Positions 15,960 to 17,298 of a stretch of 64,000 nucleotides of DNA are shown here, piece after piece. Source of the stretch: Terriglobia bacterium (lineage in GTDB: Bacteria; Acidobacteriota; Terriglobia; Terriglobales; SCQP01); NCBI GenBank assembly GCA_021323595.1, contig JAJPKR010000004.1:1-64000 (forward strand), written 5' to 3'. The notes beneath the pieces were generated by a model. That model worked only from the letters and a program-made list of their open reading frames with translations. It had not been told where the DNA came from and searched no databases. Position 1 is the first letter of the stretch. Each line of letters begins with the position of its first letter. A program made the position numbers and the translations under genes.

Positions 15960-16493
15960 TCAGCGTTCGCCCGGCTTGGTGGGCTCCATTTGCAAGGCGT
16001 TGTTGAAGCGATTGAAGTAGTTGAAGAGGCCGATGACGGCGGCGATCTCGACGATTTCACCTTCCTCGAAGTGGGCGCGCAGCGCCGCGAAGAGCGCGTC
16101 ATCCACGCCGTTCGAATCCAGGGTCATGCGCTCGGCGAAGCGCAGCGCCGCCCGCACCGGCTCCTCGAGCGGCAGCGCCTCGGGCTCCTCGAGCCGCGCC
16201 AGAATCTCCTCGCTCCAGCCGAGCCGCCTTGCCAAGGCGGTATGCGAGGCCAGTCAATAGTGGCAGGCATTCAGCTGGGAGACGCGCACCGCCAGCAGTT
16301 CCTTCAGCTTGGCGGGCACGCTGCCCGCCTCCATCACCACGCGAAAGTGCGCCAGCATCGTGCGCAGCAGCTCCGGGCGATGGGCGACGGCGCGGAACAT
16401 GTTGGGCACGTTGCCGCGGCGCTCGAACAGCGACTCCAGCAAGGGCCGCACGGCGGGCGCGGCCTCGTCGGTGGGAATGCGGGTGATGCGCAT
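15960..16493 (-). CDS. AhpD/carboxymuconolactone-decarboxylase-like peroxidase, candidate selenoprotein (CxxU)
   Basis: Two adjacent minus-strand frames form one 177-residue protein when the TGA at 16254-16256 is read through. The N-terminal part (PNMFRAVAHRPELLRTML, then LLAVRVSQLNACHY) and C-terminal part (LASHTALARRLGWSEEIL, then IAAVIGLFNYFNRFNNAL) are both typical of PF02627 peroxidase-related enzymes. Here a CxxC redox pair precedes SHTAL. The TGA stands exactly where the second cysteine belongs, giving Cys77-His-Tyr-Sec80. A SECIS-like hairpin follows. Selenocysteine forms of AhpD-like proteins are known. The gene lies 16 bases after the STAS gene stop. Start ATG 16493 is chosen over 16532, which would overlap that gene. 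The alternative is a one-base TGC/TGT-to-TGA nonsense mutation. Confidence 0.72.
16208..16256 (-). promoter_or_regulatory. UGA codon with SECIS-like stem-loop
   Basis: Read 5'-3' on the minus strand, UGA is followed after 13 bases by a perfect 7-bp stem, CCGCCUU (16240-16234) and AAGGCGG (16230-16224), closing a GGC loop (16233-16231). The loop starts 21 bases after UGA and begins with G. Both features fit the described bacterial SECIS rule (loop roughly 16-37 bases downstream, G among the first loop bases). An outer 6-bp stem, CCUCGC (16249-16244) with GCGAGG (16213-16208), encloses it. Because the sequence is also coding and GC-rich, chance pairing cannot be excluded. Confidence 0.55.
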
Positions 16494-16509
16494 GGCGGAA
16501 GCGCGCCGG

Positions 16510-16857
16510 TCAGGCGGCGGCGAAGCTGGCAATGGCGCTGGTCTCGTCGTCGTGGACGTCGAAGACCGTGTAGAGCTTGGTGATCTGCAGCAAATCGTGA
16601 ACCTTGCGGGTGAGGTTGAGCAGCTTGAGCTCGCCGCCTTCGGCGCGCACGGCGGTGAAGGCGCTGACCAGTTCGCCCAGCCCCGAACTGTCGATATAGC
16701 TCACCTCGCCGAGGTTGACGAGAATGCGCTTCTCGCCGGCGGCGAGCAGCTGGCGAATGCTGTCGCGCAACTGCGTGCTGCCCTCGCCCAAGGTGATGCG
16801 CCCGCCGATATCCAAAATCGTGACGCCGTCCACGCGGCGCGATGTCATCTTGATCAT
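16510..16857 (-). CDS. STAS-domain anti-sigma factor antagonist (RsbV/SpoIIAA-like)
   Basis: The 115-residue STAS protein has the conserved segment VNLGEVSYIDSSGLGELV. The first Ser of DSSG is the expected phosphorylation site used in partner switching with an RsbW/SpoIIAB-type kinase. The start ATG has GGGAG five bases upstream. It lies 21 bases after the RsbW-like gene, so kinase and antagonist are co-transcribed. No partner sigma-B gene is in the window, so the target may be encoded elsewhere or may not be a sigma factor. Confidence 0.92.
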   Translation of the reverse strand: MIKMTSRRVDGVTILDIGGRITLGEGSTQLRDSIRQLLAAGEKRILVNLGEVSYIDSSGLGELVSAFTAVRAEGGELKLLNLTRKVHDLLQITKLYTVFDVHDDETSAIASFAAA

Positions 16858-16878: not shown

Positions 16879-17298
16879 TCAGCGCCGCTTCCGCTTGGCC
16901 ATGCGCACTTCCAGGCCGTGGCGGAGATTCTTCAGATCCAGCTCGTCCATGAACGCGCGCGCCAGGAAGATGCCGCGCCCGGACTGCCGCAATAAATTAT
17001 CGGGCGCGAGCGGGTCGGGCAGCTTGCTGGCGTCGAAGCCTCGGCCCTCGTCGCGCACCTCGATGATCAGGCCGGCCGGCGAGATCGAGAAATCCAAATG
17101 CACCTTCTTGGCGGCGTCCAGTTGATTGCCATGGGTGATGGCGTTCACCGTGATCTCGCGCACCGCCATGGCGATATGGTGCTGCTCGTCCACATCGAAG
17201 CCGGCGGCGCGGGCGACCTCCTCGGCGGCGGCCTCGGCACGATCCACGTTTTCGATTCGGCTCTCGAGCACCAACGCTCGGTGCGTGAGTGAGTTCAA
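16879..17298 (-). CDS. anti-sigma regulatory Ser/Thr kinase (RsbW/SpoIIAB-like, HATPase)
   Basis: The 139-residue GHKL ATPase has N box REITVNAITHGNQ, G1 box VRDEGRGFD and G2 box QSGRGIFLARAF, all intact, so kinase activity is expected. It would phosphorylate the STAS protein encoded just downstream and bind an unidentified target. The frame begins with TTG at 17298; TTG or GTG eight or nine codons later is a possible alternative. It heads the three-gene unit rsbW-like, STAS and AhpD-like. The order (kinase before antagonist) is the reverse of the usual rsbV-rsbW order. Confidence 0.9.
   Translation of the reverse strand: MNSLTHRALVLESRIENVDRAEAAAEEVARAAGFDVDEQHHIAMAVREITVNAITHGNQLDAAKKVHLDFSISPAGLIIEVRDEGRGFDASKLPDPLAPDNLLRQSGRGIFLARAFMDELDLKNLRHGLEVRMAKRKRR

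Follow-up and report, generated by a model that had tools for sequence, protein, structure and literature searches.

An acidobacterial AhpD-like gene with an in-frame UGA predicted to encode selenocysteine

An AhpD-like gene with an in-frame TGA

The window analysed is a 64,000-nt stretch of DNA from a Terriglobia bacterium (contig JAJPKR010000004.1). Positions 15960-16493 of its minus strand hold a single frame of 177 codons, running from 16493 to 15960, that consists of 79 codons including the initiating ATG, an in-frame TGA at 16254-16256, a further 97 codons, and a TGA terminator. The frame contains no other stop and no frameshift. The in-frame TGA is codon 80, lies within the sequence ...NACHY-TGA-LASHTAL, and occupies the second position of a CxxC site, such that decoding as selenocysteine (Sec) would give Cys77-His-Tyr-Sec80, with Cys77 encoded at 16263-16265. 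When the TGA is read through, the protein scores 61.4 bits against PF02627 (curated cut-off 23) and 96.3 bits against TIGR01926, the peroxidase-related enzyme model (cut-off 81.8), and the match spans the TGA. The initial annotation, made from the sequence alone, described two minus-strand halves joined in one frame by a TGA at the second cysteine of a CxxC pair, with the family pattern kept on both sides and no other lesion; the open frame and the profile scores agree with this description. An AlphaFold model of the 177-residue protein is all-helical, with a mean pLDDT of 94, and its best matches in the PDB are the AhpD-like structures 2pfx, 2prr, 6k40 and 3c1l.

Three further features lie close by on the same strand. 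A hairpin, CCGCCUU-GGC-AAGGCGG, is found at 16224-16240, with a 7-bp stem and 20 nt between the UGA and the apical loop; it is interpreted below as a bacterial Sec insertion sequence (SECIS). Directly upstream of the AhpD-like gene is a gene for a STAS-domain, anti-sigma antagonist-like protein (16510-16857, PF01740), and upstream of that is a gene for an RsbW-like protein with a HATPase_c_2 domain (16879-17298, PF13581). Neither of the two upstream genes is needed for recoding.

An ORF finder using translation table 11 splits the AhpD-like gene into two ORFs, at 16254-16532 and 15960-16235. The split is consistent with a reading in which the TGA is a nonsense mutation, leaving a pseudogene or a truncated protein of 79 residues, and the initial annotation had kept this as its alternative to Sec.

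Conservation of the UGA and of the hairpin behind it

The nearest relatives of the gene in public genomes are from Acidobacteriota, and the family was sampled from genome contigs together with 297 sampled genomes of this phylum. Among 110 family genes, the codon-80 column holds TGA in 53 (the window gene included) and TGC or TGT in 57, while TAA and TAG are absent. Hence, every homologue has either Cys or UGA at the column, and the in-frame UGA aligns with the Cys of homologues, as is expected for a bacterial selenoprotein. The initial annotation had proposed this alignment as a check, and had named frameshifts flanking the TGA in close relatives as evidence against Sec; in the relatives that share the TGA, the frame is open over its full length on both sides. 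The occurrence of TGA at exactly codon 80 in 53 family genes is far beyond chance. A nonsense mutation is very unlikely given that the same codon is affected in 53 diverged genes, that TAA and TAG are avoided, and that the codon affected is that of a catalytic cysteine. Values of pN are lower than those of pS both upstream and downstream of the UGA; for the pair L026 and L057, pN/pS is 0.07/0.59 upstream of the UGA and 0.09/0.59 in the distal part. By this measure, purifying selection acts on the gene before as well as after the UGA.

The strongest evidence for recoding is the SECIS hairpin, which was absent from the initial annotation. In all 53 TGA genes, the hairpin begins 13 nt after the UGA and has seven pairs and a GGC loop. 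Across these genes, 99.7% of the pairing cells are formed, and six of the seven pairs show compensatory changes on both sides. The covariation score is 0.477; shuffled alignments give 0.197, and sliding one arm gives no more than 0.209. According to a 2026 review, the bacterial SECIS model requires a loop of 3-9 nt with G at the first two positions of the loop, a stem of 4-16 bp, a spacing of 16-37 nt, and a minimum free energy (MFE) of −7.5 kcal/mol or lower (PMC13188914). The window hairpin falls within all of these limits, with a 3-nt loop beginning GG, a 7-bp stem, a spacing of 20 nt and an MFE of −9.5 kcal/mol; the isolated hairpins of two relatives narrowly miss the energy limit, at −7.3 and −7.4. 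The SECIS argument rests on covariation and on the isolated hairpin, since the 51 nt that follow the UGA, folded as one piece, are no more stable than shuffled sequence (z = −0.61). An Rfam scan of the window found no family that reached threshold, although bacterial SECIS elements vary too widely for such a scan to serve as a test for them.

The same columns were scored in 59 genes with Cys at the column, comprising the 57 family members and two remote paralogues. Mostly one to three pairs are formed in these genes. The exceptions are L133, with six pairs and a GUC loop, and L075, which has a GGC loop and is the only one of the 59 with all seven pairs. Among the TGA genes, a clade of four (L111, L116, L118 and L122) has a differently built stem, CCGCGCA-GGC-UGCGCGG, with one pair changed in L122. 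The residues after the Sec position in this clade are NRSHTAQ (GRSHTAQ in L122), so that the protein changes while the hairpin is kept.

These data contradict the nonsense reading. A pseudogene is hard to reconcile with 53 genes that carry the same TGA and no other lesion, with purifying selection that continues after the UGA, or with a hairpin that is both conserved and covarying, and the presence of Sec machinery in the genome, described in the next section, also argues against it. The pseudogene reading was rejected on the basis of the conserved SECIS and the 53 TGA genes, and a nonsense mutation is considered extremely improbable.

Selenocysteine machinery and the history of the Sec codon

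The host genome, which is 97.6% complete, carries selA, selB, selC and selD, the set of genes that a bacterial selenoprotein requires. The selC gene, on contig C64, scores 69.7 bits against the tRNA-Sec model and is called tRNA-SeC by ARAGORN, with anticodon TCA; selB is on C14 and selA on C26. The selD gene, on C5 (L102:1480-2541), has an in-frame UGA of its own at the usual Sec position, in the sequence AAGUASK, a further and independent indication that the host decodes Sec. The statement in the initial annotation that some Acidobacteriota encode Sec machinery therefore holds for this genome, in which all four genes were to be sought. Another host match to the tRNA-Sec model, on C35 (50.6 bits), was discarded as an ordinary tRNA-Ser(UGA) by ARAGORN. 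Weaker second matches were also seen in two other genomes that already have one tRNA-Sec each, at G004:C190:14815-14909 (57.9 bits) and G040:C9:54137-54226 (52.9 bits). These could be tRNA-Ser or unusual SelC-like tRNAs.

Among the genomes of relatives with the TGA form, selC was found in 25 of 29 and selA in the other four, such that all 29 have selC or selA, as compared with seven of the 21 Cys-form genomes (Fisher p = 1.2e-7; the genomes are related, so this value overstates the number of independent events and is optimistic).

Another alternative is that a suppressor tRNA, or a change in the genetic code, causes Cys or Trp to be inserted at the UGA. Homologues without the UGA carry Cys at the column, and Cys-inserting SelC-like tRNAs have been reported from some bacteria. 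However, the UCA-anticodon tRNA fits the tRNA-Sec model and is identified as such by ARAGORN, selA, selB and selD are all in the genome, the downstream element is consistent with decoding through SelB, and TGA still terminates the window gene and many related genes. This reading was rejected on these grounds, and there is very little probability that it is correct. The codon column, the covarying SECIS and the host machinery together support the claim of the initial annotation that the TGA is decoded as Sec. As far as sequence comparison can establish, UGA80 is almost certainly recoded as Sec: the SECIS hairpin just after UGA80 would recruit SelB with Sec-tRNA(Sec), and the ribosome would then put Sec where the CxxC site has its second Cys.

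The history of the codon was followed on a tree that was rooted only at its midpoint and for which the recoded column had been masked. The Sec/Cys label requires six changes on this tree, of which at least four are forced by well-supported branches. Since most of the deep branches are Sec forms, the simplest reading, given the midpoint root, is that Sec may have been present early in this gene set and was then lost repeatedly. The Cys clade L022/L032/L043 retains selC and selA, so losing the machinery is not what forced its Sec/Cys change. The gene L075:3275-3799, which has the perfect hairpin described above, has TGT at the codon and is placed inside a Sec clade; its genome has no selC match and no selA above the cut-off. 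The best interpretation of L075 is that Sec reverted to Cys recently and that the SECIS persists as a relict, although incompleteness of the assembly could also account for the missing machinery. Residue 77 differs between the two forms, being Cys in 53 of 53 Sec forms and Thr in 40 of 57 Cys forms (Fisher p = 1.7e-16, for genes that are not phylogenetically independent). Within one phylum, Sec and Cys forms thus make up a dense series: 53 Sec genes share a covarying SECIS, the Sec/Cys label changes several times, and one apparent revertant still bears the hairpin. The series is well suited to studying how Sec is lost.

Predicted chemistry, known families and gene neighbourhood

The relay of Mycobacterium tuberculosis AhpD comprises Glu118, Cys130, His132, Cys133 and His137 (PMC3141380). 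Residues with the same spacing in the window protein are Glu65, Cys77, Tyr79, Sec80 and His84; Glu65, Tyr79 and His84 are conserved. The catalytic Glu, Cys, Cys/Sec and His are spaced alike in M. tuberculosis AhpD, in Pseudomonas aeruginosa PA0269 (2o4d) and here, and PA0269 also has the same fold, with a Tyr preceding its second Cys, but M. tuberculosis AhpD and PA0269 carry Cys where the window protein would carry Sec. By alignment and fold, Sec80 would stand in place of Cys133, with Glu65 and His84 as proton-relay residues. From the shared spacing, the attacking group would be the selenol of Sec80 and the resolving group the thiol of Cys77. Sec80 may reduce a peroxide or another electrophile, after which a Sec80-Cys77 selenenylsulfide would form and be re-reduced by a partner. 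Overall, the gene very probably encodes a 177-residue thiol-selenol oxidoreductase of the AhpD-like/CMD family with SECIS-directed Sec80.

Peroxidase-type chemistry is a further step beyond the recoding, and is somewhat more likely than not. Alternatively, the recoding could be genuine but the role of the enzyme a different one: it might serve another partner as adaptor or reductase, or carry out reductive dehalogenation as Bmp8 does. The debrominase Bmp8 (6ohi, 6ohj) is among the fold matches of the AlphaFold model, with 23-24% identity, and AhpD is itself an adaptor to AhpC (PMC3141380). On the other hand, the annotations of the closest structures name them peroxidase-related or AhpD, though these names are mostly untested. 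A function other than that of a peroxidase is a substantial possibility, if not the expected one.

The selenoprotein family itself is already known, and the acidobacterial gene, which almost certainly encodes Sec, is a well-supported addition to it. As the initial annotation stated, AhpD-like CxxU proteins are among the bacterial selenoproteins on record: studies from 2005 (PMC1088965) and 2008 (PMC2398784) include AhpD-like and CMD CxxU families, and the 2026 review has the entry "AhpD-like protein, TIGR01926, CxxU" (PMC13188914). The reviewed protein resembles the one described here in its TIGR01926 model, its CxxU motif and the position of Sec, second in the motif, but the protein listed is MCB9421940.1, a different one. 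For that listed protein, the available passages contained neither a set of Acidobacteriota genes nor an aligned SECIS nor a description of neighbouring genes, and no paper describing the acidobacterial genes, their SECIS or their surroundings was found in the literature searched, coverage of which was partial. What is new here is the member itself, the distribution and apparent repeated loss of Sec in Acidobacteriota, the relict SECIS, and the frequent adjacency to an RsbW-like/STAS pair. Selenium use by Acidobacteriota may be under-counted, because standard bacterial-code gene calling splits the gene in two. Two related models of AhpD-domain selenoproteins, NF053654 (YciW-related (seleno)protein) and NF041238 (AhpD_rel_CFYUT), were tried, and membership was rejected for both, with scores of 84.5 against a cut-off of 310 and 44.4 against a cut-off of 175, respectively.

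The adjacency was counted in those related loci for which 900 nt or more of sequence was available upstream, requiring a STAS gene on the same strand within 600 nt upstream. Such a gene was found at 13 of 28 Sec-form loci as compared with two of 36 Cys-form loci. The RsbW-like gene occurs in 18 related loci, the same 18 as the STAS gene. This arrangement suggests that the Sec-AhpD gene may be regulated by partner switching. A broader proposal is speculative and rather unlikely: the Acidobacteriota Sec-AhpD would be an output of the adjacent RsbW-like/STAS partner-switching pair, forming a stress-regulated Sec redox module, and in lineages that lost Sec only the Cys standing in its place would remain, often with Cys77 gone, so that a mechanism based on two residues would give way to one based on a single residue.

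The host has one more AhpD-like (TIGR01926) gene, L011:1354-1974 on C49, with an in-frame TGA in the sequence RCHY-TGA-IDSHAE, followed by the hairpin ACGCAGA-GUU-UCUGCGU, with an MFE of about −9. Given the in-frame TGA and the hairpin behind it, this gene probably encodes a second AhpD-type selenoprotein of the host genome.
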